Shown here one piece after another: positions 30,323-43,821 of a stretch of 64,000 nt of DNA (the first letter of the stretch is position 1; every line of letters begins with the position of its first letter). The notes beneath the pieces are model-generated. The model had not been told where the DNA came from and searched no databases. It worked only from the letters and a program-made list of their open reading frames with translations. The DNA is from Xanthomonas vesicatoria ATCC 35937 (lineage in GTDB: Bacteria; Pseudomonadota; Gammaproteobacteria; Xanthomonadales; Xanthomonadaceae). The translations under genes were made by a program, and so were the position numbers. The DNA is taken from the NCBI RefSeq assembly GCF_001908725.1, contig NZ_CP018725.1, forward strand, positions 558,001-622,000, written 5' to 3'.

Positions 30323-31300
30323 TTACGGAGCGGCTGGCTGATCCGGCGCGAGTTGCAAGCGTACCCACACACCGTAGTGATCCGATGCCCAACGGCCTTC
30401 GGCGTAAGGCGTATCGAACAGGATGCGGGCTTCGCGGGCGAGCAGGCGGTTTTGCTGGAAGAACACGTGGTCGATCCGTGCCGGCTTGTCGAAGACATGC
30501 AGATTCAAGGTGCTGACGGTGGCATCGCTGTTGCGGTGCACGCTGCCATAGCTGTCGCCATAGCCCCTGCGTAGCGCCTCCAGATCCAGCGCATCGGCAG
30601 CGGTATTGAAATCGCCGGCGATCACTACCGGCGCCTGCACGCTGGTGGAGGCGATGAAGTCCAGCAGGTCGCCGATCTGGCGCGTGCGCGTTGCAGTGCC
30701 ACGCGCATCGGCGCGTTCGTTGAGGTGGGTGACGTAGACATTGACCGGCTGGCCGTCCACATCCACCTGCAGGTGCGCGGCAACGCGGTAGTCGTCCAGC
30801 GGTTGCAGCAGGCGCGCATGGCGCGCCAGCACCTTGCCCCGGCTCAGTAACGCATTGCCGTAGCGCTTGGGAGCACCGACAGGATCTGCCGAGGCAAAGA
30901 TCACCTCGTATCCCAGTTTGCGCGCCAACCAAGTGGCTTGGTTTTCCACGCTGCCCCGCCGTTCGATGACCTCTTGCAGGGCAATCACATCTGGCGCCAG
31001 TTGCTTGAGCTCCTTGGCGATATAGGTGCGGCGGGACGGCCAGTCTTCGCGGTCATGATGCAGGTTGAGCGTGACCAACGTCAGCTCGCGTGCAGACGGA
31101 GCCGGCGCTGCCTTCCCTGCTGGATCACTGACGGCCGTGAAGTCGCCTTGCTTGGACTGCACGGCGGCGGCTGGCTCTGTCTGACGCAGCCGTCCTGCCT
31201 GCGCTTGCGCGCAGCATAGAACCAGTACGACAACGGCCGCACACAGGCCAGCGCGCCGCCATTGTTGCCCTGCCCGTACCAGCCAAGGCATCACCATCAT
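30323..31300 (-). CDS. Secreted endonuclease/exonuclease/phosphatase (EEP) family protein
   Basis: 325 residues with an N-terminal export signal (hydrophobic AGLCAAVVVLVLCCAQAQA) and an EEP domain from ~70: LVTLNLHHD, IALQEVIERRG (metal Glu), THLNER, GDFNTAADALDL (Asp/Asn), and a C-terminal SDHYGVW (Asp-His). The fold hydrolyses phosphodiester or phosphomonoester bonds; the actual substrate is unknown. It is the last gene of the sugar-scavenging operon, its start overlapping the glycosidase stop by ATGA, which makes a role with a phosphorylated or glycerophosphorylated glycan thinkable. Confidence 0.88.
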   Translation of the reverse strand: MMVMPWLVRAGQQWRRAGLCAAVVVLVLCCAQAQAGRLRQTEPAAAVQSKQGDFTAVSDPAGKAAPAPSARELTLVTLNLHHDREDWPSRRTYIAKELKQLAPDVIALQEVIERRGSVENQATWLARKLGYEVIFASADPVGAPKRYGNALLSRGKVLARHARLLQPLDDYRVAAHLQVDVDGQPVNVYVTHLNERADARGTATRTRQIGDLLDFIASTSVQAPVVIAGDFNTAADALDLEALRRGYGDSYGSVHRNSDATVSTLNLHVFDKPARIDHVFFQQNRLLAREARILFDTPYAEGRWASDHYGVWVRLQLAPDQPAAP

Positions 31301-34300
31301 TGCGTGGCGCGCTCGGCCCGCCGCACTGCACTGGGAACATCGATCTGCACGGTGGCCGGCATCTGCTGGATCCGCAGTTCACCGTTCTGCCAGTCCACGG
31401 TTTCACCGTTGACGCTGGCTTTGCCAGGTTCGCCCTGATACGGCCAGACGAACACCACACCACCAGGCGGCATCAGCAGGCCGGGCTGCAGCTGCAGCGA
31501 CAGCTGTTTTTCGGTGCGCTGCAAGGTGTAGTTAAGGCGGCCGTACGGGGTGCGCAACTCGGCGATGCCGATGCCTTTACCTTCGAACCAGCGTGTCGGC
31601 GTGCCGGCGGCGATCACGATGCTTTGGTCGAATTCACGGGTGTAGGCAAACATGTCGAGCACCGAGCGGACGAAATCCGACGCCACCCAGGCATGCGGCA
31701 GGTCGCCGACGAAGAAAGGAGTACGCGGCGTACGCGAAACCACTTCGGCCCACTGATTCCAGGGCTGCGGTGCGCGATCCTTGAAGAAGAATGCCGTCGC
31801 ATCCCAGGCGCGCTCGCGCCAGCCCAACCGCACGAACGCGGCGACATTGCGCCATTCGTATGGAGTGTAGTCCTTCCACTCGCGTTTGCCGTCGCGGCGG
31901 TCGGAGAACTCTTTCCAATAGCGCTCGAAGGTGTTGGTCAGCAGGTCCTGCGGCAGGCGCTGCTGCTCGCCGCCCGGCGTCAGCGCGATGGTGGTCGAGG
32001 TCGCATCGAAATCGCCGAGCTCGGCCGAGCCGGGCAGGAAATCGATCTTGTGCTCGCGCACTGCCGCACCCAGCGAGGCGATCAGATCGCCACTGAATTC
32101 GTCGCGTGCAGCGCTGAAACGGGCGACATCCTCCGGCTTGTCGAGCGCACCGGCCAGCAGGGTGGCATCCTTGTAACCGCGCAGCGCCCAGAAGTTATCC
32201 CAGTACGAATGCACCGGCTTGGCCGAATAGCCTTCGTGGCTGATCGATACCGGCATCATTCCGTAGAAGGCCGGGCTGCGCATGAAGTTGTCTTCGGTGC
32301 GCTCGCTGGCGCGCAGCTTTTCCATGTAATCGAACGCGCCGGCGACATGCGGCCACATCTTTTCCAGGAAAGGCCTGTCGCCGGTATAGCGGTAGTACTC
32401 CGCGATGTTGTAGATCAGCTCGCCATGGCTGTCGTTTTCCGGCACCGGGTCGCTGCCGCGGTCATCCACGCAGCACGGCACCATGCCGTCGGCAAATTGA
32501 TAAGGCGCGAACCAATCCACGTAGTCGCGCACCACGTCTTCGCGGCCGAGCCGCAGCAGGCCTTCGGAAATCATCGCGCCGTCGCGGATCCAGCTACGCG
32601 AATACGAGCGCGTGCCCGGCTGCAGGCGCGGGCCGATGCGCGAGATCAGCATGTGCGCCAACGCGGTGCGCAGCGTATCGACCACCGGCTTGCCTTCGGC
32701 CGGCACGTTGATGCGCACGCGATCGAGCTTGCCGCGCCATTGCTGGGCCACCTGCTGCTGGGCTTTGTCGGCATCGAAGCCGGCGGGCAGTTGCGCCGCG
32801 CCGGTCTGGGGGATCACCAATGCCACCTCGCGTTTCTGGCCGGGCTCCAGCTTCCAGCGATACAACAGCACGCCCGAAGCCAGGCCGGTTTCGTCCTTGA
32901 CCTGAGTGACGGTGGGCGGCGTGGCAGCAGTGAGATGGCTGACATCCATGCCACTGTCGAAGGCGCTGGCGAAGCCCGCGTCGGGCCGCTGGGCGGCAAA
33001 CACGCGCGGCTTGCCGTTGACGCTGACCTGGCTGCCGTCCACCGCCAGTTGTTCGATACGGCTGACGCCGCCCAAGGTATTGAGAAACTGCGCCGGCGGG
33101 TTGACCTGGAACGGGCGCACCGCCAGGGCCAGGGTGAAATCGCGCGTCTCCTTGCCGGTGTTGTGCAGCTGATAGCGCGCGACCAATTGCGCCTGATCGG
33201 GTGTGCCCTGCACGAACGCGGTGACGCGCAGATTCATCAGGTCGTGATGCCAGTCGACGCTGGGGATGGGCAGGTAATCGTCCTGCAGGCTCTGCTCGCT
33301 GCTGACATCGGACCAGTGCAGCACCTTGCCGCCGGTGACCACGAACGGCTCGATGCTGAAACCGCCCTTGCCCACCTCCACTGCACCGTCTTCGCCGATC
33401 AGGCCCTGCTCGGTGCCGCCGTCCAGGCCGAGGATGGTCCAGTACGGCTGCTCGCCGGAAAACCCCCGTGGATAACTGCCACGCGGCAGCTGGCCGGCCA
33501 GCGACTTGATGAAATCGTTAGGCGTTGCCGCAAACGCCAGCGCTTGCAGCTGTACCTCTTTAATGCCGTAGCGCCAGTTCGGGCCATCTTTCAGGTCGAA
33601 ACGCAAATAGCGGGCTTCGGTATCGGGCAACGCCAGCCAGTCAGTGCCGCCCGCACCGGCAGTGACGGTGCGCAGATCCCGCCAACTGCGGCCATCGGCC
33701 GATGCACGCACCGCGTAGTGCGATGCCTGCAGGCCGGGCACCCACTGCACCACCGCGCCGCCAAATTCGCGCACCTTGCCCAGATCCAGCGTGACGGTCT
33801 GTTGCTTGACCGCGCCACTGAGCCAGAAGGTCTCCGGCTTGCCGTCGGCCAGGCGTTGTTCCAGTGCAGGCGCGGTATCGGTGATCGCCTCGGCCTTCAA
33901 CGGCGAGGTGTCCTCCGGCGGCAGCGGCGTGAGCGTCAGGCGGTCGAAGCACACTGTGCCCTTGCCGCCGACCTTGTTGTAGATGGTGAACTCGACATCC
34001 GCGCTGCTGCGCAGTTGCTTGTCCGCACCGGGGCCCCAGGCCTTTTCGATGTTGCGCTTGCGGTAGTTGAAGGTGGTCCAGTTCTTCGGGACATTGAAAC
34101 CCGGCCGGTTGACCCACCATACGTTGTCGCCGCTGGCATCGATCAGCTTGAGCTGCAGATCGTTGGACGGCGATTCGCCACGCAGCGAAAACCCGATGCG
34201 GTAGTTCTCGGGATACTCAAGCGGCAGCGCACGGCGGATGCCGACGTAACCGGAGACGCCATTGAAGTTGTAATCCAGGCACAGCGCGTGTCCACCGGAG

Positions 34301-34464
34301 GACGTTGCCACCGGCCGCAGCGAGCCGCTGACCTGGTTGGACACCACCAGGCGCCAGGCGCCGATATCGTTGAAGCCGTCGAGCACGCGCTCCTGCGCCT
34401 GCGCCGCGCCCGCAGACGTGACGAAAGCGGCCATGGCACACAGTCGCAGGAACACCGGTTTCAC
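31297..34464 (-). CDS. Secreted glycoside hydrolase with discoidin domain and (alpha/alpha)6-type catalytic region
   Basis: About 1055 residues with a signal peptide (FLRLCAMAAFVTSAGAAQAQ). Residues ~25-170 look like a carbohydrate-binding beta sandwich (DGFNDIGAWRLVVSNQVSGS), ~185-310 a discoidin/F5-8-type module (LDLGKVREFGGAVVQWVPGL, ARYLRFDLKDG). A central beta-sandwich precedes a helical barrel from ~640 with SYSRSWIRDGAMISEGLLRL, DGMVPCCVDDRGSDPVPEND, SHGELIYNIAEYYRYTGDR, resembling GH15/GH65-like glucoamylase-type enzymes. Family and bond specificity are not assignable by eye. The start is a GTG at 34464 overlapping the permease stop (GTGA); the next gene overlaps by ATGA. Confidence 0.88.
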   Translation of the reverse strand: MKPVFLRLCAMAAFVTSAGAAQAQERVLDGFNDIGAWRLVVSNQVSGSLRPVATSSGGHALCLDYNFNGVSGYVGIRRALPLEYPENYRIGFSLRGESPSNDLQLKLIDASGDNVWWVNRPGFNVPKNWTTFNYRKRNIEKAWGPGADKQLRSSADVEFTIYNKVGGKGTVCFDRLTLTPLPPEDTSPLKAEAITDTAPALEQRLADGKPETFWLSGAVKQQTVTLDLGKVREFGGAVVQWVPGLQASHYAVRASADGRSWRDLRTVTAGAGGTDWLALPDTEARYLRFDLKDGPNWRYGIKEVQLQALAFAATPNDFIKSLAGQLPRGSYPRGFSGEQPYWTILGLDGGTEQGLIGEDGAVEVGKGGFSIEPFVVTGGKVLHWSDVSSEQSLQDDYLPIPSVDWHHDLMNLRVTAFVQGTPDQAQLVARYQLHNTGKETRDFTLALAVRPFQVNPPAQFLNTLGGVSRIEQLAVDGSQVSVNGKPRVFAAQRPDAGFASAFDSGMDVSHLTAATPPTVTQVKDETGLASGVLLYRWKLEPGQKREVALVIPQTGAAQLPAGFDADKAQQQVAQQWRGKLDRVRINVPAEGKPVVDTLRTALAHMLISRIGPRLQPGTRSYSRSWIRDGAMISEGLLRLGREDVVRDYVDWFAPYQFADGMVPCCVDDRGSDPVPENDSHGELIYNIAEYYRYTGDRPFLEKMWPHVAGAFDYMEKLRASERTEDNFMRSPAFYGMMPVSISHEGYSAKPVHSYWDNFWALRGYKDATLLAGALDKPEDVARFSAARDEFSGDLIASLGAAVREHKIDFLPGSAELGDFDATSTTIALTPGGEQQRLPQDLLTNTFERYWKEFSDRRDGKREWKDYTPYEWRNVAAFVRLGWRERAWDATAFFFKDRAPQPWNQWAEVVSRTPRTPFFVGDLPHAWVASDFVRSVLDMFAYTREFDQSIVIAAGTPTRWFEGKGIGIAELRTPYGRLNYTLQRTEKQLSLQLQPGLLMPPGGVVFVWPYQGEPGKASVNGETVDWQNGELRIQQMPATVQIDVPSAVRRAERATQ

Positions 34465-35297
34465 CCCTTCACACTCCCCAGCAGAAGACCTTGGATGTAG
34501 TAACGCTGCAGCGCCAGGAACAATAGCAGCACCGGAATCACTGTCACCACCGCACCGGCCATCATCAGTTCCACGTCCATGATGTGCTCGCGCGACAGCG
34601 CCGCCAGCGCCACCGGCAAGGTGTATTGCTCCTGGTCGGTCAGCACGATCAGCGGCCACATGAAGTCGTTCCACGAGCCCATGAAGGTGAAGATGGTCAG
34701 GGTGACCAGCACCGGCTTGAGCATCGGCAACACGATCTGGAAGAAGATCCGCATCTCGCTGGCGCCATCGATGCGTGCGGCTTCGATCAACTCATCGGGA
34801 ATGCTGCGCGCGTACTGACGGACCAGGAAGATGCCAAACACCGTGGCCAGCGCCGGCACCACCACCCCGCCGATGTTGTTGACCAGATGCAACTGCTTCA
34901 TCAACAGGAATAGCGGCAGCATCGCGACCTGCGCCGGGATCACCAACGCCGCCATCAGGATCTTGAAGATGCGCTCGCGGCCGACGAACTGCAGCTTGGC
35001 GAAGGCATAGCCGGCCATCGTGTTGATCAGCAACGAACCGAGCGTGATCAGCCCGGACACCAGCAGGCTGTTGGCGAAGTTGCGCGCCATGCCGGTGCGC
35101 GCGAACAGCTCGTGATAGTTGGCCAGGGTGAACGCCGACGGCAGCATCGGCGGCGGGAAGCGGCTGGCCTCGCCGGTGGGCATGAACGACACCGACAGCA
35201 TCCACAGCAACGGCGCCAGGCTGATCAAGGCCAGCACCAGCAAACCGCCGTTGATCAGCACGGCATTCCACCGCGATTCGCCGACATCACGACTCAT
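34461..35297 (-). CDS. Sugar ABC transporter permease (MalG type)
   Basis: Inner-membrane permease of 278 residues, six predicted helices, with the ATPase-contact EAA loop ELIEAARIDGASEMRIFFQI. CUT1 family, oligosaccharide importer half. Start at 35297 overlaps the MalF-type stop by ATGA. No ATPase gene lies in the operon. Confidence 0.95.
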   Translation of the reverse strand: MSRDVGESRWNAVLINGGLLVLALISLAPLLWMLSVSFMPTGEASRFPPPMLPSAFTLANYHELFARTGMARNFANSLLVSGLITLGSLLINTMAGYAFAKLQFVGRERIFKILMAALVIPAQVAMLPLFLLMKQLHLVNNIGGVVVPALATVFGIFLVRQYARSIPDELIEAARIDGASEMRIFFQIVLPMLKPVLVTLTIFTFMGSWNDFMWPLIVLTDQEQYTLPVALAALSREHIMDVELMMAGAVVTVIPVLLLFLALQRYYIQGLLLGSVKG

Positions 35298-36178
35298 ATC
35301 AGGTCCTTCTTGCGGCCAAAGCGCAGCATGACGGTGGTCACTGCCAGGATGATCAGGAACAACAGGAACGCCACCGCCGACGCGCGGCCGAGGTTCCACC
35401 ATTTGAAGCCTTCTTCGAACATGAAATACAGCACGCTGACAGTGCTCTGCAGTGGGTCGCCGCGGGTCATCACGTACGGTTCGGCGAACAGCTGGAAGTA
35501 GCCGGAGATGGTGATCACCCCGACCACCATCAGCACCGGGCCGAGCATCGGCAGGGTGATGTGCAGGAACTGCTTCCAGCGTGAGGCGCCATCGATGCGT
35601 GCAGCTTCGTAGAGGTCTTGCGGAATCGCCTGCAGGCCTGCCAGGAAGATCACCATGTTGTAGCCGAAGTTCTTCCACACCGCGAACAGCATGATGGTGG
35701 GCATCGCCCAGCGCGGGTCACCCAGCCAGTCGATCGGGGCGATGCCGAGATGGCTCAGCCCGAAGTTGACCAGGCCATATTTGATATGGAACAGGTAGCG
35801 CCAGATCACCGCCACCGCCACCAGCGTGGTCACCACCGGTGCGAACAGTGCCGTGCGGAACAATGCCTTGAACCGCGAGGCTTTCGCATTGAGCAGCAAG
35901 GCCGCACCGAGCGACACACCGATCGACATCGGCACGCCCAGCAACACGAAGTAGGTGGTATTCCACAACGACTTCCAGAACAGCGGCGTTTGCAGCAGCT
36001 CGATGTAATTGCCCAGGCCGACGAAGCGCAAGTGGCTGCTATCGGCCAGCGCATACAGGTCGAAGTCGGTGACACTGAGCACCAGCGCAGCGAACACGGG
36101 CACGCCGAAAAACATGCCAAGCACCATGATCGACGGCGCGGCGAACACCCAGCCAGCGACGGAATTGCGTTTCATCAT
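35294..36178 (-). CDS. Sugar ABC transporter permease (MalF/UgpA type)
   Basis: Inner-membrane permease of 294 residues with about six helices and EAA loop DLYEAARIDGASRWKQFLHI; the partner of the MalG-type permease. It overlaps the binding-protein gene upstream and the second permease downstream by ATGA, so subunit production is coupled. Confidence 0.95.
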   Translation of the reverse strand: MMKRNSVAGWVFAAPSIMVLGMFFGVPVFAALVLSVTDFDLYALADSSHLRFVGLGNYIELLQTPLFWKSLWNTTYFVLLGVPMSIGVSLGAALLLNAKASRFKALFRTALFAPVVTTLVAVAVIWRYLFHIKYGLVNFGLSHLGIAPIDWLGDPRWAMPTIMLFAVWKNFGYNMVIFLAGLQAIPQDLYEAARIDGASRWKQFLHITLPMLGPVLMVVGVITISGYFQLFAEPYVMTRGDPLQSTVSVLYFMFEEGFKWWNLGRASAVAFLLFLIILAVTTVMLRFGRKKDLI

Positions 36179-37527
36179 TGTGCCGCTCCCTTGCCGCTCA
36201 CCGTGGCGGGTGCAGGCGCATCGAGCGGCGCACCCGACTCACCAGCCGGGCCCACATGCCCGCCTTCCTGCGCAAAGATCCAGCGCCGTTTGGCAAGAAT
36301 CTCGTCCACGCGTTTATCCAGTTCCTGCACCGCAGCCTCGTGCGATTGACCGCCACGCACCACGCGCTCGGTCACCAGGCGCATTTCCTGCACGATGCGC
36401 TCCCACTCCAACACCTTGGGCGTGGCCTTGACCCGCTCCAGCTGGTCGCCGAAGGCATGCGCCAGTTCGTCGTTGGCCAACGACGGCAGCTTCCAGGTAC
36501 TACGTCGCGGCGGAAGGTCGCCGATGATGGCGTGGAAGCGCGCCTGCACCGTGGGCTGGGACAGGTATTCGATCAACTTCCAGCTGGCCTCCTTGTGTTG
36601 CGAGGACTTGAAGATCACCAGGCTGGAGCCACCGGCGATGCCGGCGCCTAAGCCATTGGGGCCGGGTAACGCCGCAGTGCCCCACTTGCCTTCCATGCCC
36701 GGTGGCTGGCGCAGCTTGAACTCGCGCACGTTCCAGGGCCCGGACAGGTAGAAGGCGTAATAGCCGTTGAAGAATTCGTACCAGACGTTGGACACCTGGG
36801 TTTCGGACACCTTCGGCGCCCAGCCCTTCTGGTACATGCCGTCGTAGAACGCCAGCGCCTTGCGGAAGCCTTCACCGCGGAAGTTGCCGTAATTATCGTG
36901 GTCGCGCAGCAAGCGGTCGTCCTGCTGCAGCGCGAAGGACAGCTGCTGCTCGAACTCGTTGAGCGGCATCAAGATGGCGTAACGGTCGGGGCCGACCTTG
37001 CGCTTGATCGCGGCCATCACCTGCTCCATCTCGGCCCAGGTCTTGGGCATTTCGCTATAGCCGGCCTCGCGCAATAGATCCTTGCGGTAGAACAGCAGCC
37101 GGGTGTCCACATACCACGGCACCCCGTACAGGGTGCCATCGACCATGTTGGTATCCCAGACGCCGGGGAAATAATCGGCCGGGTCGACGATGGTCGAGCG
37201 CGCCACGTACGGCTGCATCGGCTCCAGCGTGTCCAGCAAGGCGAATTCCGGCAGCCAGGTATTGCCGAGCTGGCACACGTCCGGCAAGCCATCGGCGGCG
37301 AACGCGGTCAGCAGTTTTTCGTGTGCCGCGGTCATCGGGATGTTCTGCACATCGACCCGGATGTCCGGGTTCTGCTTCTCGAAATCGGCCACGAGCTCGG
37401 CCACCACTTCGGCCTCCTTGCCCATGGCCCAGAAGCGCACGGTGGTCTTGGCGGGGTCGGAGCGGTCACATCCCGCCGCGCCTGCACACAGGGCGGCGGC
37501 CAACATCAACAGTTTCAAAAGGCGCAC
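36175..37527 (-). CDS. Extracellular sugar-binding lipoprotein of ABC transporter
   Basis: Family 1 solute-binding protein of 450 residues; lipoprotein signal LLMLAAALCAGAAGC with lipobox AAGC, so attached to the membrane. The body has TTVRFWAMGKEAEVVAELVA, FEKQNPDIRVDVQNIP, ADGLPDVCQLGNTWLPEF and NVWYEFFNGYYAFYLSGPWN. GTG start at 37527, three bases after the GH144 gene. A ~35-residue Pro/Ala-rich tail is unusual. Delivers a short glucan or other oligosaccharide to the two permeases. Confidence 0.93.
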   Translation of the reverse strand: MRLLKLLMLAAALCAGAAGCDRSDPAKTTVRFWAMGKEAEVVAELVADFEKQNPDIRVDVQNIPMTAAHEKLLTAFAADGLPDVCQLGNTWLPEFALLDTLEPMQPYVARSTIVDPADYFPGVWDTNMVDGTLYGVPWYVDTRLLFYRKDLLREAGYSEMPKTWAEMEQVMAAIKRKVGPDRYAILMPLNEFEQQLSFALQQDDRLLRDHDNYGNFRGEGFRKALAFYDGMYQKGWAPKVSETQVSNVWYEFFNGYYAFYLSGPWNVREFKLRQPPGMEGKWGTAALPGPNGLGAGIAGGSSLVIFKSSQHKEASWKLIEYLSQPTVQARFHAIIGDLPPRRSTWKLPSLANDELAHAFGDQLERVKATPKVLEWERIVQEMRLVTERVVRGGQSHEAAVQELDKRVDEILAKRRWIFAQEGGHVGPAGESGAPLDAPAPATVSGKGAAQ

Positions 37528-37530
37528 GGA

Positions 37531-39168
37531 TTACTCGGGTTTGGGGCGTTGCGTGGAGTTTTGGCGTTGCGACGGGTCTTGCTGGGCCTGGGCAGCGGCG
37601 GCACGCGACTCGGCCATGCCCAGCGAGCGTGCAGCGGCTTTTTGCTCATCCTTTTGCGGCAACGGCTGCGGCTCACCTTCGGGCGTGAGCCAGCCTCCGG
37701 TGAAGCCGGCGCGTTCCAGACCGGCGCGGATGTAGGGATTCTTCTTCATCACCGTCCAGACGAATTCGTTCTGGTAGTTGGCGATCATTGCGAGGATCGG
37801 GCCCTGATCGATGGCGATGTAATCGCTGGCCACCCAGCCACGGTCCGGCACCATGCGCCCGGTCTTGAGCGGGATGTCGTAGTTGAAGCTGGGGTTGAAT
37901 GAATCCAGAAAGCCATAGCTGGAATACAGGAAGTCGCCATAGCGCTTGTGCATTTCCTCGGTGGCCGGGATCACCACTTCCGGGGCGAACACGATCGAGG
38001 AGATTGCTGCGGTCGGGGCGATGGTGCCGTCGTCGAAGTTCTCGCGCAGGCCCGCGCCGCGCGAGGAGTAGTGCCGGAATTGGCGCTGCTCGCCGCGGTA
38101 TTCCTGGCTGGTGTTCTGCGGGCCGTCGCCGGCGGTCAGGCCCCAGACGTTCTCGCCGTAGTCCTTCCACTTCATCGGGTTGTCGATGGCGTAGTCGCGC
38201 TGCGCCAGGGTGGCGCGACGGCTGTTGAGGAAATAGTCGATACCGCGCTCGCGCATGTACTGGTCCTGGATATCGCGGAAGTCGATCCAGACATGGCTGT
38301 ATTGGTGGCCGAACAGTGGCCCGAAGGACAGGTATTCCTGGCCCTGGTAGACGCCCCAGTCGTTGTTGTAGGTGCGGGTCCAGCTGGTCCACGCTTCCGG
38401 GTCGACTCCGTGGGTGGGCGAGCCCAGCGCGAGGATGTACAGCATCATCGCCTCGTTGTAGCCCATCCAGTCATGGTCGATGAAGCCACTCTCCGGGAAC
38501 CAGCCCATCGAGATCAGTGGCGCACGCTGTTGCAGCCAGCGCCAGTCCACGCGCTTGTACAGCGTGTCGGCGATCTGGCGGATTTCCTTTTCGCGCGGGT
38601 CGTCGCCGTCGTAATACGACTGGGTGAACAACACGCCCATCATCAGCAGCGCGGTGTCCACGCTCGACAGCTCAACCCAGCTGTCGTAACGGTTTCCCTG
38701 CTGCATATCCAGAAAGTGATAGTAGAAGCCCTTGTAGCCAGCCCTACCGGTCCGCTGCGGCCCCATCGGCGCATCGCGGAAGAATTTCAGTGTGGTCAAG
38801 GTGCGGTCGATTGCCTGATTGCGGCTGACCCAGCCGTTTTCGATGCCGATCGGATACGCAGTCAGCGCAAACCCGACCGAGGCGATGCTGGCGAACGGAC
38901 GCGACGGAAACCGGTCCGGAGCCAATCCATTGAGCTCGTTGGTAGTGTCCCAGAAGAACTGGAAGGTGCGGCGTTCGATGTCCGAAAACAGCGGCGGGAG
39001 CGGCGGCTTGACCGGCTTGGGCGGCAACTGCGCCTCGATCAGGATTACCTTCACCGGTGCCTTCTTTTCGGCCACCTTGGGTTCCTCGGCCTGTTTGCAG
39101 GACGCCAGCACCAGCGCGCCCAGCAAGAGTGGAATCGTCAACCAACCCGACGTGTTGCCCCTGTTCAT
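37531..39168 (-). CDS. GH144-type glucoamylase-family lipoprotein (probable endo-beta-1,2-glucanase)
   Basis: 545 residues. Lipoprotein signal with lipobox LASC, then a Pro/Lys-rich linker and an (alpha/alpha)6 domain of the 'Glycoamylase' family (PF10091, CAZy GH144): DIERRTFQFFWDTTNELNGL, IASVGFALTAYPIGIENGWV, FYYHFLDM, SVDTALLMMGVLFTQSYYDG, GFIDHDWMGYNEAMMLYILA, IAIDQGPILAMIANY. Characterised members cleave beta-1,2-glucan (sophorooligosaccharides). A ~50-residue Gln/Ala-rich tail follows. First gene of a six-gene operon (GH144, binding protein, two permeases, glycosidase, EEP) with a perfect 14-base palindrome just upstream. Start 39168 with GGGGGG before it. Confidence 0.9.
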   Translation of the reverse strand: MNRGNTSGWLTIPLLLGALVLASCKQAEEPKVAEKKAPVKVILIEAQLPPKPVKPPLPPLFSDIERRTFQFFWDTTNELNGLAPDRFPSRPFASIASVGFALTAYPIGIENGWVSRNQAIDRTLTTLKFFRDAPMGPQRTGRAGYKGFYYHFLDMQQGNRYDSWVELSSVDTALLMMGVLFTQSYYDGDDPREKEIRQIADTLYKRVDWRWLQQRAPLISMGWFPESGFIDHDWMGYNEAMMLYILALGSPTHGVDPEAWTSWTRTYNNDWGVYQGQEYLSFGPLFGHQYSHVWIDFRDIQDQYMRERGIDYFLNSRRATLAQRDYAIDNPMKWKDYGENVWGLTAGDGPQNTSQEYRGEQRQFRHYSSRGAGLRENFDDGTIAPTAAISSIVFAPEVVIPATEEMHKRYGDFLYSSYGFLDSFNPSFNYDIPLKTGRMVPDRGWVASDYIAIDQGPILAMIANYQNEFVWTVMKKNPYIRAGLERAGFTGGWLTPEGEPQPLPQKDEQKAAARSLGMAESRAAAAQAQQDPSQRQNSTQRPKPE

Positions 39169-39182
39169 CCGCCCCCCACTTG

Positions 39183-39196
39183 TGTAATCGATTACA
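39183..39196. promoter_or_regulatory. Perfect palindrome, candidate LacI-family operator
   Basis: TGTAATCGATTACA is a perfect 14-base dyad with a central CG, the classic layout of LacI-family operators. It lies 15-28 bases before the GH144 start, where bound repressor would block the six-gene operon. Its TGTAA half-site recurs in the pair upstream of lacI at 43419 and 43465. Confidence 0.75.
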
Positions 39197-39232
39197 TCTC
39201 GCACGCCAACCTACCCTATCCAAGCGCCGAGT

Positions 39233-39265
39233 TCGACCGCCCTGACGTCATGCCAGGGCGGTCGA
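39233..39265 (-). terminator. Hairpin after the TonB receptor gene
   Basis: 12-base-pair perfect stem (TCGACCGCCCTG at 39233-39244, complement at 39254-39265) with a 9-base loop, 5 bases after the receptor stop. No T-run follows on the minus strand, so it may stabilise the receptor message or only partly terminate. Confidence 0.5.
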
Positions 39266-39270
39266 GTACC

Positions 39271-42249
39271 TCACCAGTTCAGGCCAAAGGCCAGACGGAA
39301 GGTACGCATCGGCGACGCCAGCACACCGGTCGGTGTGCCGTAAGCCGTGTTCAAGTCGTCTAGTGTCCCGGTATCGCCGTTAAAGTTGGCGTAGTTCACC
39401 CAATTGAACACGTTGAGGATATCCGCACGCACATTGAATTTGACACCTGCACCGGTATCCCATTCTTTGTTGGCGGCAATGCTGAACTCCTTGTAGCCCA
39501 ACGTGCCATCCGGCTTGAACTGGATGATGTCGCACTGGTCGTTGCCGGCAAGGCAATTTTGACCATAGCGCGCGGTCTGGCTTGCCAGCGACAACTTGCC
39601 GGACAGCTTGACCTCGTAGGGCAGCTCGTAGATGCCGGTGACCACCAGGCGGTTCTTCGGGATGCCGCCGGCCTCGCGCCAGCCGTAATCTTCGATGCGC
39701 TCGCGATCCAATGCGTAATGCTCGCCGAACTGGCGGTTTTCCTTGGCATCGGAATAGGTGTAGGCCACCGTCAGGCCCCAACCGGATTCTTCATCGAAGG
39801 GCTTTTCGACCTGCAACGCGAGTTGGTTGTTGCGGGTCTCCACCCCATTGGTGCCGAGCACGATGGCGCTATAGCCGTCCGGTCCGTCGGTGGGTACGCC
39901 CGAGGTGGTGCCGGGCTGGAAGAACGCGCCGTTCGGCAGGCGGTTGCCGCGCACGAACGCAAAGCCGTCATGGCTCTCGATGCGGCTCAGGGTCACGTCG
40001 GTGAACCAGTCCTGGCCCCACAGCGGCACCATGTTGCGCATGCCGATGCTGAATTGATCGGAGTACGGGGTCTTGATGTTGTTGTCGATCAGATAGATTT
40101 CACGCCCGCCGCCGCCGGCGCTGGTCGCCGCCAGCGCATCGAGCCCTTCCTGGCTGGCGAAGGACGGATTCCATGCCGTGCACGGGTCGCCCAGGCAGGC
40201 CGGGTTGTTGGCGCTGGTGAAGTAGTAGCTATAGGACTTGAAGGAGTTGTTGAGCTGCTCCAGGGCCAGGTAATCGAAGATGTTGCGGTCGTAGGCACGG
40301 CCGGCGCCACCGTAGATCACGTGGGCCTGGTCGCCGAACAGGTCGTACGAGGCACCCAGGCGCGGCTGCCAGGCATTCTTGAACGCCTTGCGGTTGTTGC
40401 CGGTGCTGATGAAGTTGTTGATGTTGTAGTTGGCGTTTTGCAGGTTGGGCCAGTTCTGCAACGCACCGGCCACATCGGACGGCGTGACGAAGTCCAGGAA
40501 TGCCGGGGTTTCTTCGTAGTCATAGCGCACGCCCAGGTTGAGGGTCCAGTGCTCGTTGACCTCCCAGTCGTCCTGCAGATAGATACCGTACTGCTTGTTC
40601 TTGGATACCACCGAGCCGCCACCTTCGGTCAATGGCGCGCCAAAGCGCACGCGGTACGGCGTTTCGACATCGGTAAGGATGTTGTAGTAGTACTGCGGAT
40701 TGGCCGGGTTGAACTGGGTCGAGTCCAGATCGATGCTCTTGAACTTCACGCCCATCTTGACGGTGTGCGCGCCGTGCCATTCCAGGCTGTTCAAGGTCAG
40801 ATCGTCCTGGAACGTCCAGCCTTTCTGGCCCTTGCGCTGGAAGCTGCTGCCGGCACCGGCGGCCAGCACGTCGGTCTCGTTACCGCGCACCGGCGTGTAG
40901 CTCAGCACGTATCCGCTGCCGTTGTTGAGCGGCGCCTGGTTCCAGAACGCACTCTCGTAGCTCAGGTTGGCTTCGTTGAGGAAGTTGGCACCGCTGTACT
41001 GCCAGCGCAGGTTGGCGCGCTTTTCTTCCTGGCCGTTGACGCTGCCGTGCTCATAGGTCGAGGTCTGGCCGACGTCGTTGAGCTCGTCTTCCTTGCGGTA
41101 CTTGCCGGTCAGTTCGAACAGGTTGTTGTCGCCGATGGTCCAGTCGATCTTGCCGAAGTACAGGTCTTCCTTGAACGGGGTGCTGTAGGTGGCCACCAGC
41201 GGCTGCAGCTGTGCCGGCAACTGGTCCACGCGGTCGGAATAGATCGAGCCGGGGATCACCACGTTGGGGGTGGTGTATTCCTTGGCTTCATAGGCGATGA
41301 AGAAGTGCGCCTTGTCCTTGAGGATCGGGCCGCTGAAGGTGGCGCCGTACTGGGTTTCCTCGAAGTCATCGCGCACGCCGGCCTTCTTCTCCAGCGGGCT
41401 TTCTTCGCGCCAGCCATCATTGCTGGTATCCCAGAAGAAGCTGCCGTGGAAATCGTTGGTGCCGGACTTGGACGAAGCCACGATGGCCGCGCCGCTGACC
41501 TGGTCGAACTCGGCCTTGTAGTTGGAGGTGATGACCTTGTATTCGCCGATCGCCGACTGCGGGAACGGATTGCCACGGCTGGAATCCTGGCCAGCGACGC
41601 CGCCGGTCAGCACGTAGTTCTTCTGGCTCACGCCATCGATATAGACGTTGGTGCCTTCGGCCGAGGTCGCGCCCGAGCGCACCTTGGTGGTGCCGTTGGC
41701 GTCGCGGGTGAACTGCACGTTCGGCACGGTGTCGGCCAGCTCCAGGAAGTTGCGCGTGGCACGCGGCAGGTTCTGGATCTGCACATTGGAAATGTACGTG
41801 GCGTTCTCGGAGGTGCGCGTCTCCACCAGCACCGGCGGCGCCTTGACCTGCACGGCGTCCAGCGTGGTGGCGTTACCACCTTCGGTCGTGGCCGGCTCGC
41901 CGCCGACGCCCAGGTTCAGGGTCGCGGTCTGGCCGACCTGCACGGTGACGTTCTGCGAGCTGGTCTCGCCGTTGGCGGTGACGTCGATGCGGTACGAACC
42001 CGGCGGCAGGCCGCCGACCGAGTAACTGCCGTTGTTGACTTGCACGGTGCGGGTCAGGCCGGTCGCGAGATTGGTCGCAGTCACCTGGGCCTGCGCCGCG
42101 GGCGCCGAGTCGACGCTAACCTGGCCGCGGATGGTTGCGGCAGTGCTCTGCGCAAATGCAGGTGCGGCGCCTAGCAGCAGGCAGCTGGCCAGGGCGCAGC
42201 TGAGGAGCTTGCGCGCCGGACGGGCGGAATGGGGGTGGTGGTGGCGCAT
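39271..42249 (-). CDS. TonB-dependent receptor (Oar-like, carboxypeptidase-regulatory N-terminus)
   Basis: Outer-membrane receptor of 992 residues. Signal peptide ends near APAFAQS; residues ~30-120 form a CarboxypepD_reg/CNA-like domain (ATIRGQVSVDSAPAAQAQVT, GLPPGSYRIDV); then a plug (LPRATRNFLELADTVPNVQF, SSKSGTNDFHGSFFWD) and a large beta barrel ending FRLAFGLNW with the terminal aromatic. A canonical TonB box is not obvious. GGAGGGACCA before the ATG is a strong ribosome site. It lies 103 bases after the LacI gene and before the GH144 operon, so it probably imports the glucan fragments used by that operon. Confidence 0.93.
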   Translation of the reverse strand: MRHHHPHSARPARKLLSCALASCLLLGAAPAFAQSTAATIRGQVSVDSAPAAQAQVTATNLATGLTRTVQVNNGSYSVGGLPPGSYRIDVTANGETSSQNVTVQVGQTATLNLGVGGEPATTEGGNATTLDAVQVKAPPVLVETRTSENATYISNVQIQNLPRATRNFLELADTVPNVQFTRDANGTTKVRSGATSAEGTNVYIDGVSQKNYVLTGGVAGQDSSRGNPFPQSAIGEYKVITSNYKAEFDQVSGAAIVASSKSGTNDFHGSFFWDTSNDGWREESPLEKKAGVRDDFEETQYGATFSGPILKDKAHFFIAYEAKEYTTPNVVIPGSIYSDRVDQLPAQLQPLVATYSTPFKEDLYFGKIDWTIGDNNLFELTGKYRKEDELNDVGQTSTYEHGSVNGQEEKRANLRWQYSGANFLNEANLSYESAFWNQAPLNNGSGYVLSYTPVRGNETDVLAAGAGSSFQRKGQKGWTFQDDLTLNSLEWHGAHTVKMGVKFKSIDLDSTQFNPANPQYYYNILTDVETPYRVRFGAPLTEGGGSVVSKNKQYGIYLQDDWEVNEHWTLNLGVRYDYEETPAFLDFVTPSDVAGALQNWPNLQNANYNINNFISTGNNRKAFKNAWQPRLGASYDLFGDQAHVIYGGAGRAYDRNIFDYLALEQLNNSFKSYSYYFTSANNPACLGDPCTAWNPSFASQEGLDALAATSAGGGGREIYLIDNNIKTPYSDQFSIGMRNMVPLWGQDWFTDVTLSRIESHDGFAFVRGNRLPNGAFFQPGTTSGVPTDGPDGYSAIVLGTNGVETRNNQLALQVEKPFDEESGWGLTVAYTYSDAKENRQFGEHYALDRERIEDYGWREAGGIPKNRLVVTGIYELPYEVKLSGKLSLASQTARYGQNCLAGNDQCDIIQFKPDGTLGYKEFSIAANKEWDTGAGVKFNVRADILNVFNWVNYANFNGDTGTLDDLNTAYGTPTGVLASPMRTFRLAFGLNW

Positions 42250-42352
42250 TGGTCCCTCCAGGGATCGGTACAGATTGTTGTTGTGGCATTGCGAACTAGC
42301 AGGAACGACCGCTGCGGGGGAGCAGCGGGAGCGGACAGAACGTCCGCGAAAG

Positions 42353-43375
42353 TCAGGGGCCGGGCTCGCCGGCACCGCAGGAAGCACGTATCACCAGCTC
42401 GGGCGTGAGCAATTGGCGGATACCGTCGTCATGGCCGGGCAGTTCCACCAGCCGCATCAATCGGGACATCGCCTGCTCGCCCAGGCGCGCGATGCTGACC
42501 CGCATGGTGGTCAGCGCCGGATGGACGAAGCGTGCCAGCGGGATGTCGTCGAACCCGGCCAATGCCACATTGCCAGGCACCGACACCTCGGCCTGCGCAA
42601 ATGCGTACAGGCAGCCGAGCGCGGTCATGTCGTTGGCGGCAAATACCGCATCGGGCAAGGTCCCGGCGGCCAGCATTGCCAGTCCGGCACGGTGACCGGA
42701 GGCTTCGTCGAAGTCGCCGGCGTATTCGATCCCCTGCGCCTGGTCGCCGAAACCGGCAATCGCGTCGCGGAAACCGCGCAGGCGTTCGCGCGCATCGAAA
42801 TTGAGCGCCGGCCCTCCGATAAAAGCGATGCGCCGGTGGCCGGCACGCAACAGGTGCTCGGTCATGGCCATGGCACCGGCATGGTCATCGATGCTCAGCA
42901 CTGGATAACCGGCGCCGGGCAGATGCGCATTGATCAGCACCGTCGGCAGCGACTGCGGCAGATTGTCGGTAAGAAATCCCGGCTGCTCGGCGTAGGGAGA
43001 GAGCACCAGCAAGCCGTCTACGCGCCCGCGCATGGACCGCAGCGCCCTACCCTGCGCCTCCGGGTCGCCGTGATAACTGGACACCAGCAGGTGCTGACCG
43101 GCGGCACGCGCGGCACCGTCGATGCCGCGGATCAATTCGGAAAAGAACTCGCCATACAGGTCCGGCAGCACCACACCCAGGGTCTGGGAACGCCGGCTGC
43201 TCAGGCTGCGGGCAGCCGCATGCGGGCTGTATCGCAGCCGCTCGGCCACGTCCATGACCTGCTGGCGCACTGGCCCGGCGACGTTGTCATGTCCGTTGAG
43301 CGCACGCGACACGGTGGCCACAGAGACCTGTGCCTCCCGCGCCACATCTTTGATGGTGACCGCACCCTTGGCCAT
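42353..43375 (-). CDS. LacI family transcriptional regulator
   Basis: DNA-binding repressor/activator of 340 residues. N-terminal helix-turn-helix VTIKDVAREAQVSVATVSRA with the hinge YSPHAAARSLSSRRSQTLGV, then a periplasmic-binding-like sugar domain (LPDLYGEFFSELIRGIDGAA, GVPGNVALAGFDDI-like segment VPGNVALAGFDDIPLARFV). Start 43375 with GGAGGG upstream. It heads the locus; an inverted pair of operator-like sequences lies before it, suggesting autoregulation and control of the receptor and GH144 operon. The inducer is likely a sugar released by the locus. Confidence 0.93.
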   Translation of the reverse strand: MAKGAVTIKDVAREAQVSVATVSRALNGHDNVAGPVRQQVMDVAERLRYSPHAAARSLSSRRSQTLGVVLPDLYGEFFSELIRGIDGAARAAGQHLLVSSYHGDPEAQGRALRSMRGRVDGLLVLSPYAEQPGFLTDNLPQSLPTVLINAHLPGAGYPVLSIDDHAGAMAMTEHLLRAGHRRIAFIGGPALNFDARERLRGFRDAIAGFGDQAQGIEYAGDFDEASGHRAGLAMLAAGTLPDAVFAANDMTALGCLYAFAQAEVSVPGNVALAGFDDIPLARFVHPALTTMRVSIARLGEQAMSRLMRLVELPGHDDGIRQLLTPELVIRASCGAGEPGP

Positions 43376-43821
43376 TCGTGTCGCCCTCCGCGACCCACTT
43401 CGCAAAACTGGCGCGGACTGTAAGCGTTTTCATAAGCGGGCGTAAACCCCCATCTTCACGCCTGTGAAAACGCTTACAGATCAAGCATCTGCAGGTGATG
43501 AATACGTGAATGAACGTGCTGCGTCGCAACAAATGGCGCCCGCGCGCCACAAATGAAGCGGAACGCCGGTCACGGCCGGGGCCACGTCGACTGGTGCGTT
43601 GACCAGTGGAAACGCGACTCCCGGTCTACAGGCACGTGGCGCCGCTCGGATCGCGACGTTAAAACGTATGTGATGGTCTTCGCCGATATCAGAGACTGAC
43701 TTTCTGGGACCGAGCAACGCCAGAGCGGCTGCAGCGTTCTCGGTGCGACGGGGGTTGACGGCACTGCCCGTCGCCCCCGAATGCGCTCCTGCAACCGCGG
43801 CTCGGTCGTCCGGGCTTCGGT
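43376..43821. other. Intergenic region between lacI-type gene and bolA
   Basis: 446 bases without a gene. The LacI-proximal third holds the paired operators; the remainder shows no gene, no clear terminator for bolA and no recognised repeat. Confidence 0.5.
43419..43478. promoter_or_regulatory. Inverted operator pair upstream of the LacI-type gene
   Basis: TGTAAGCGTTTTCA at 43419-43432 is exactly inverted as TGAAAACGCTTACA at 43465-43478 (15 bases each if the outer C/G is counted), 32 bases apart. Each is itself an imperfect LacI-type dyad around CG, with half-sites TGTAAGC and TGAAAAC, matching TGTAATC of the GH144 site. Spacing of 46 bases between centres could allow looping or cooperative binding over the lacI promoter. 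Confidence 0.75.

Follow-up and report, generated by a model that had tools for sequence, protein, structure and literature searches.

A probable beta-1,2-glucan utilization locus in Xanthomonas vesicatoria, with a candidate enzyme for alpha-1,6-closed glucan rings

Two described gene clusters, the SOGP/SO-BP cluster of Listeria innocua (Lin1839-1841) and SGR_2422-2427 of Streptomyces griseus, pair an ATP-binding cassette (ABC) importer with an endo-enzyme or phosphorylase that acts on beta-1,2-glucan; the importer's binding protein is Lin1841 or a homologue. Lin1841 is the subunit that binds Sop3-5, and its homologue lies in a Streptomyces cluster containing beta-1,2-glucan enzymes (PMC12369401). 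In another Xanthomonas, the endo-beta-1,2-glucanase XcSGL (XCC2207, PDB 8XUL) belongs to glycoside hydrolase family 144 (GH144; other families are abbreviated likewise). The CUT loci of Xanthomonas bring together a LacI regulator, a receptor, enzymes and an inner-membrane transporter (PMC1790865). Here we describe a locus at positions 30323-43375 of a 64,000-nucleotide stretch of the Xanthomonas vesicatoria genome (the window; G000:C1:558001-622000, in a genome of 5.35 Mb on three contigs). It consists of eight open reading frames, all on the minus strand, for a LacI regulator, a TonB receptor, a GH144 lipoprotein, a solute-binding lipoprotein (SBP), two permeases (PERM1 and PERM2), a large glycosidase that we call GHX and a protein of the endonuclease/exonuclease/phosphatase (EEP) family.

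Like the Listeria and Streptomyces clusters, the window locus joins a beta-1,2-glucan enzyme to an ABC importer with a Lin1841-like SBP. Unlike them, the window locus has a Gram-negative layout with a TonB receptor, a lipoprotein GH144 and GHX; its operon is without a beta-glucosidase or phosphorylase, and the ATPase is encoded elsewhere. It shares its general composition with the CUT loci and differs from them in its substrate, which would be a bacterial and not a plant glucan. Very probably, this is a real and conserved beta-1,2-glucan utilization locus, its GH144 part being already known and GHX being a candidate enzyme. That the whole works as a LacI-controlled system, one that also handles the alpha-1,6-closed ring expected from the genome's own OpgD, we consider likely.

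The GH144 enzyme, the importer and their conservation

The GH144 product matches PF10091 (Glycoamylase) with 303.8 bits against a cut-off of 27 (E 9e-91), and it matches XcSGL (8XUL) with 1217 bits, the two proteins being near-identical across 529 aligned residues with few substitutions only. The clan residues E239, F286 and Y367 of XcSGL (PMC12102758) are kept as 251 E, 298 F and 379 Y. The available text of PMC12102758 describes XcSGL as specific for beta-1,2-glucan and active on beta-1,2-glucan alditol, with less than 0.2% activity on the other polysaccharides examined, which included soluble starch and did not include xylan. By orthology to XcSGL, the window enzyme is assigned as an endo-beta-1,2-glucanase, an identity already published at the level of the enzyme. 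The initial annotation had placed the 37531 product in GH144 and proposed beta-1,2-glucan as its substrate; the family matches confirm the former and the assayed orthologue supports the latter.

Compared with the PDB sequences, the SBP scored highest with 3UOR (932 bits), followed by 5YSB, which is Lin1841 or SO-BP (229 bits over residues 28-413), and then by a match of 119 bits. Among solved relatives whose ligand is known, Lin1841 is therefore the closest, at nearly double the bits of the next. We predict from this likeness that the SBP is of the SO-BP type and imports beta-1,2-oligosaccharides, an identification first made here. The best match carries a different name: 3UOR is known as Xac-MalE, named MalE or putative maltose-trehalose-binding protein (PMC7676653, PMC13084667). 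Together with the MalF/MalG-like permeases, this name would suggest uptake of maltose or another alpha-glucoside. However, the available text of the same two papers lists the ligand of 3UOR as unknown or apo. The only maltose-induced TonB receptor gene of X. campestris, according to the part of PMC1790865 available, is XCC2469, in a different locus. The induction of XCC2469, the result of the GH144 orthologue on soluble starch and the match between SBP and Lin1841 led us to reject a maltose locus as the main reading; we regard it as very improbable. The locus suggests instead that the solved "maltose-binding" protein 3UOR is misnamed. As for the receptor, XCC2208 is probably its counterpart in X. 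campestris, judging from a number adjacent to XCC2207; XCC2208 is mentioned in PMC1790865 as a protein without a canonical plug.

The locus had initially been called complete, which does not hold. A Pfam scan of the operon frames found no ABC ATPase gene, so the operon is not self-sufficient. A gene for an ATPase of the UgpC subfamily lies about 76 kb away (C1:511209-512297; 480 bits against a cut-off of 432), and this UgpC/MalK-type protein could supply the missing part of the importer. There is also no beta-glucosidase among the operon genes; the genome as a whole has seven GH3 matches and one GH94 match.

To describe conservation, we scanned the contigs of other genomes, retained the top 80 of 356 loci and counted genes by tblastn. 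GHX and both permeases were present in all 80, the SBP in 79, GH144 in 78, LacI and the receptor in 72 each, and the EEP gene in 45. Two contigs end before GH144 (L028, L080) and two before LacI (L036, L053); in all 78 loci whose contigs reach GH144, the core GH144-SBP-permease-permease-GHX is present, L057 (Luteimonas cucumeris) and L072 (Stenotrophomonas rhizophila) among them. No LacI match was found in the fetched DNA of L020, L027, L050 and L058. In a distant genus, two loci (L233, L234) have the full order LacI-receptor-GH144-SBP-permease-permease-GHX, a third (L235) has the same order with the LacI side cut, and the contig of a fourth (L236) is cut at GHX. L237 reads LacI-GH144-SBP-permease-permease-GHX-ATPase, with its own ATPase and no receptor. 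The locus is beyond chance: each frame has matches in known families or, in the case of GHX, many homologues, and the order recurs in the 80 related loci. One of these (L035) is titled Bacillus subtilis and carries a Stenotrophomonas-type cassette with a GHX identity of 70%; the assembly is probably mislabelled or contaminated.

Taken together, the proposed mechanism runs as follows. The GH144 lipoprotein would cut the glucan internally, as expected from its orthologue for beta-1,2-glucan and by extension for the ring. The TonB receptor, where present, would carry the fragments into the periplasm, where GHX may trim or linearise them; our leading, still tentative, suggestion is an inverting exo-glucosidase for the alpha-1,6 joint, which GH144 is unable to cleave. 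The SO-BP-like SBP and the two permeases would then import beta-1,2-oligosaccharides with the UgpC/MalK-type ATPase from about 76 kb away. The glucose released would feed zwf-glk-pgl, which appears from its sites to share an operator with the ATPase gene, and repression would be lifted when LacI binds an oligosaccharide or glucose.

The source of the glucan may be the cell itself. The initial annotation had offered recycling or feeding on competitors, and the main role could be to recycle glucan from the cell's own periplasm rather than to scavenge it from outside. The genome has a cyclase-type OpgD, and MdoG accompanies GHX in nine of nine genomes of the class sample described below. Six of the 80 loci have no receptor (L020, L023, L050, L058 and L059, none because of a contig end) or only an 8% remnant of it (L013), yet they keep GH144, SBP, permeases and GHX, and three of them (L020, L050, L058) retain this core even without a LacI match. 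On the other hand, 72 of the 80 loci have the receptor, and some genomes without detected MdoG carry the cassette too, although cyclic glucan synthase was not looked for in them. We find recycling as the main role doubtful, if a serious contender; own-glucan recycling and feeding on the glucan of others may both hold.

Operators and a putative regulon

From the sites TGTAATCGATTACA, TGTAAGCGTTTTCA and TGAAAACGCTTACA of the window we drew a looser operator pattern, TGNAANCGNTTNCA. Across the 80 loci (1.77 Mb) the pattern matched 182 times, versus no match for a reversed control pattern. Every one of the 70 loci that could be tested had it before LacI, and 62 of 78 had it before GH144. These counts are not independent, since many of the 80 loci are closely related. 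The pattern is also carried by Luteimonas and Pseudoxanthomonas loci, whose GHX identity is 61-65%. In L020, which has no receptor, both operators stand directly before GH144, and in L057 an operator lies about 130 bp before the likely ATG of an ATPase gene of the UgpC subfamily, about 8 kb downstream of GHX. The distant loci L097-L108 and L233-L237 showed no match to the pattern, so the regulator there must use a different site.

In the whole X. vesicatoria genome, there were 19 operator sites versus three control sites. One of them, at C1:512412, falls between the UgpC-subfamily ATPase gene and zwf-glk-pgl. We propose on this basis a regulon of the locus, the ATPase gene and zwf-glk-pgl under this LacI; literature searches on a LacI regulon in Xanthomonadales returned either nothing or a single unrelated paper. 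The surroundings of four further operator sites of the same genome were read by eye. Also by eye, we noted a paralogous LacI gene followed by an apparent TonB-receptor gene, with the similar operator TGTAAGCGCTTGCA near the start (L260, G000:C1:2756000-2765000), and, immediately before what looks like a gene for class I fructose-bisphosphate aldolase, another LacI-type operator (L258, site 4325). Three Lysobacteraceae loci (L238, L239, L240) hold a GHX paralogue outside the cassette, 32% identical to the window GHX and without the N-terminal part, with a LacI-type operator close upstream; it is on the plus strand in L239.

GHX and the alpha-1,6 joint of the closed ring

The alpha-1,6-closed beta-1,2-glucan of X. 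campestris has a reported importance for plant infection, and the enzyme that closes it is known (PMC11228985). By contrast, our literature searches, which included the available parts of PMC12102758, PMC11228985, PMC11842490 and PMC12369401, found no description of an enzyme that breaks the alpha-1,6 bond of the ring. GHX, which is widely conserved, offers a concrete candidate for this step. If it does act there, the infection-linked ring glucan becomes fully digestible both for the bacterium that makes it and for cassette-bearing neighbours.

By sequence, GHX is hard to place. Of its initial description as a discoidin glycosidase, the Pfam search on the 31297-34464 product bears out the discoidin domain (F5/F8 type C, 5e-15), but GDE_C (PF06202) matched only weakly (8e-4), under its cut-off, and a plain GH133/amylo-alpha-1,6-glucosidase was rejected on that count. 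Likewise, the oligosaccharide-amylase model TIGR01577, which we take to be a GH15 model, gave 32.7 bits against a cut-off of 820.7; GHX was not filed as GH15 because of this, and membership of the TIGR01577 family by sequence was rejected. A GHX profile of 47 rows scored well with CBM32-type and other discoidin domains among PDB sequences, while its catalytic part found no match there stronger than E 0.003. At E 0.001, GHX has 7029 homologues among 7999 candidates scored. On these matches, GHX appears to be without a close relative of known structure or a close known family.

A glucoamylase-like barrel had been proposed at the outset, and the fold search agrees: GHX has the GH15-type combination of a beta-sandwich with an (alpha/alpha)6 barrel. 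Among the fold families listed by the search, dextran dextrinase is closest to it, with the best Z and coverage. Over the aligned part, GHX is 12-13% identical to the GH15 enzymes dextran dextrinase, glucodextranase and bacterial glucoamylase.

Gene neighbours also connect GHX with beta-1,2-glucan. Outside Lysobacteraceae, GHX stands beside GH186 (opgG/D), GH94/SOGP or GH144 in five of seven families (f28, f62, f91, f203 and f235, but not f68 and f136); in three of the five, the neighbour is GH186, GH94 or SOGP. For example, two MdoG genes lie upstream of GHX in L098. In L100, genes for an ATPase, SBP, permeases, GHX and GH94 are consecutive, with MdoG divergent, and in L101 and L102 SOGP is directly downstream of GHX.

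We then asked which genomes have GHX. In a class sample of 274 genomes, 16 matched GHX at 1e-10: nine near full length, one a short partial match (G199), and six weak ones that were left out (G146, G230, G247, G126, G080 and G009, the last discoidin-only). MdoG (GH186) was present in 42 of the 274 genomes and in all nine with full-length GHX (p 2e-8), and the corresponding numbers for PF10091 were 30 and nine (p 7e-10). SOGP_N occurred in three genomes, all of them with GHX (p 2.5e-5). All three p values ignore kinship. Strong GH144-like PF10091 matches were confined to five of the nine GHX genomes (G000, G012, G165, G091, G174); in the other four, the matches were weak or fell in very long frames that resemble cyclic glucan synthase. 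A phylum sample of 398 genomes, partly overlapping the class sample, contained 11 genomes with full-length GHX. Seven weak matches were left out (G383, G399, G431, G435, G447, G527, G599), and so was G543, which has only the paralogue without the N-terminal part; including it gives 12 GHX genomes, six of them without MdoG. MdoG was found in none of the six weak-match genomes of the class sample but in five of the seven of the phylum sample (G399, G431, G435, G447, G527), so the weak-match genomes are not a clean negative control.

Ring-closing OpgD is marked by W76, D343 and R477, with Tyr at 76 in some (PMC11228985). The OpgD of the window's own genome has these residues and the general acid D379 of XccOpgD (W, D, R, D), which places it in GH186 clade 3. 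In the class sample, we read this signature in the own locus and 67 further MdoG loci, leaving out three fragments. The W/Y-D-R signature was present in seven of nine GHX genomes (eight of ten with G199) versus one of the 32 genomes that have MdoG but no GHX (Fisher 1.2e-5); at the level of families, it was present in four of six with GHX versus one of 25 without (p 0.002). For the phylum sample, the 30 best OpgD loci, one per genome, were taken from 109 genomes with a match. Six of the 11 GHX genomes had the signature, all of them Lysobacteraceae. When both samples were counted by family, four families had both GHX and the signature, four GHX only and seven the signature only, of about 245 (p 1.4e-4). 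We rejected the idea that GHX and the OpgD cyclase are strictly paired one to one: the class sample alone looked tight, but the phylum sample has exceptions both ways. The link between GHX and ring-closing OpgD is real but loose.

Several points weigh against a LacI-controlled system that uses the closed ring, in addition to the ligand listing of 3UOR. The pairing of LacI with its operators comes from position, and further members of the LacI family may recognise similar sites. The roles of the receptor and of GHX in this locus are predicted ones. In the fold search, GH116 beta-glucosidases, GH65, GH63 and GH94 SOGP scored only a few Z units below dextran dextrinase, and the fold of GHX cannot fix anomer or linkage. 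The neighbours examined in the distant GHX loci L097 and L099 did not include a beta-1,2-glucan gene. In the phylum sample, ten genomes with the cyclase signature were without full-length GHX, and five of the 11 GHX genomes had no MdoG match; this absence is not proof of no beta-1,2-glucan, because no search for cyclic glucan synthase was made in those genomes.

GHX could instead act on another bond: on beta-1,6 side chains of linear glucans, on beta-1,2 ends, or as a GH94-type phosphorylase or transferase. However, in the phylum sample 12 genomes have Pro at 76 in their best OpgD (of the 30 fetched), and all 12 lack GHX; dextran dextrinase also retains the best Z and coverage. Moreover, a periplasmic exo-beta-1,2-glucosidase would probably degrade the very oligosaccharides for whose import the ABC system seems to be made. 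We give another bond something short of an even chance. The alpha-1,6 joint, which the initial annotation had named as a possible target, draws on the fold, the gene neighbours and part of the co-occurrence, but the phylum sample supplies exceptions; action on this joint is a tentative assignment that we would not call probable. More doubtful is the fuller proposal that GHX founds its own glycoside hydrolase family, a periplasmic inverting exo-alpha-1,6-glucosidase that would remove the single joint after GH144 opens cyclised glucans, with E744 and E907 as acid/base candidates.

Gene calls and accessory features

The eight genes on one strand and their families, as first described, were borne out by the open reading frames and by Pfam and NCBIfam (Table 1). 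The same is true of the close packing from GH144 onward: the coordinates give a gap of 3 bp between GH144 and SBP and overlaps of 4 bp at each of SBP/PERM1, PERM1/PERM2, PERM2/GHX and GHX/EEP. In Pfam, both permeases match BPD_transp_1, the SBP matches SBP_bac_1/8 at 1e-41, and the receptor matches OMP_b-brl_4/TonB barrel models. The start of PERM2 was corrected from 35678 to 35297 (278 aa). The likely start of GH144 is the ATG at 39168, giving 545 aa, the same length as the published XcSGL; the likely start of the receptor is 42249, and the LacI ATG is at 43375. Between the receptor and GH144 genes, at 39234-39264, we observed a strong GC-rich inverted repeat, CGACCGCCCTG...CAGGGCGGTCG, with no T run after it.

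Table 1. Features of the locus in window coordinates
Feature	Position	Strand	Evidence
Secreted EEP-family protein, accessory	30323..31300	-	PF03372 E 9e-24
GHX, 1055-aa secreted, discoidin/CBM32-like domain + beta-sandwich + (alpha/alpha)6 barrel, candidate exo-glycosidase	31297..34464	-	
ABC permease 2 (PERM2), MalG/UgpE type	34461..35297	-	PF00528; NCBIfam UgpE/GlcU/MalG matches under cut-off
ABC permease 1 (PERM1), MalF/UgpA type	35294..36178	-	PF00528; NCBIfam UgpA/GlcT matches under cut-off
Solute-binding lipoprotein (SBP), SO-BP-like	36175..37527	-	PDB 3UOR 932 bits; 5YSB Lin1841 229 bits
GH144 lipoprotein, endo-beta-1,2-glucanase by orthology (XcSGL/XCC2207)	37531..39168	-	PF10091 E 9e-91; 8XUL 1217 bits
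LacI-type operator TGTAATCGATTACA	39183..39196	.	14 bp before GH144 ATG
TonB-dependent receptor, carboxypeptidase-regulatory + barrel type	39271..42249	-	PF25183, PF00593, PF13620
LacI-family regulator	42353..43375	-	PF00356, PF13377
LacI-type operator TGTAAGCGTTTTCA before lacI	43419..43432	.	
Second LacI-type operator TGAAAACGCTTACA before lacI	43465..43478	.	

The EEP protein has the motifs TLNLH, QEV, GDFN, RIDHVF and SDH, which we take to be the catalytic motifs of the EEP family. It found no sequence match in the PDB at E 1e-5, and the names of its homologues are generic; as a guess, it might remove phosphate-linked substituents of the glucan. In three loci from different families of the same class (L104, L106, L107), a weak GHX relative of about 750 aa lies near a protein of about 800 aa with a stretch resembling the window EEP protein (E 4e-11, 7e-6 and 1e-9, respectively). 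In L106, the one of the three that was scanned, a GT4 gene lies between the two, and the EEP protein is a fusion of a phosphodiesterase with EEP.
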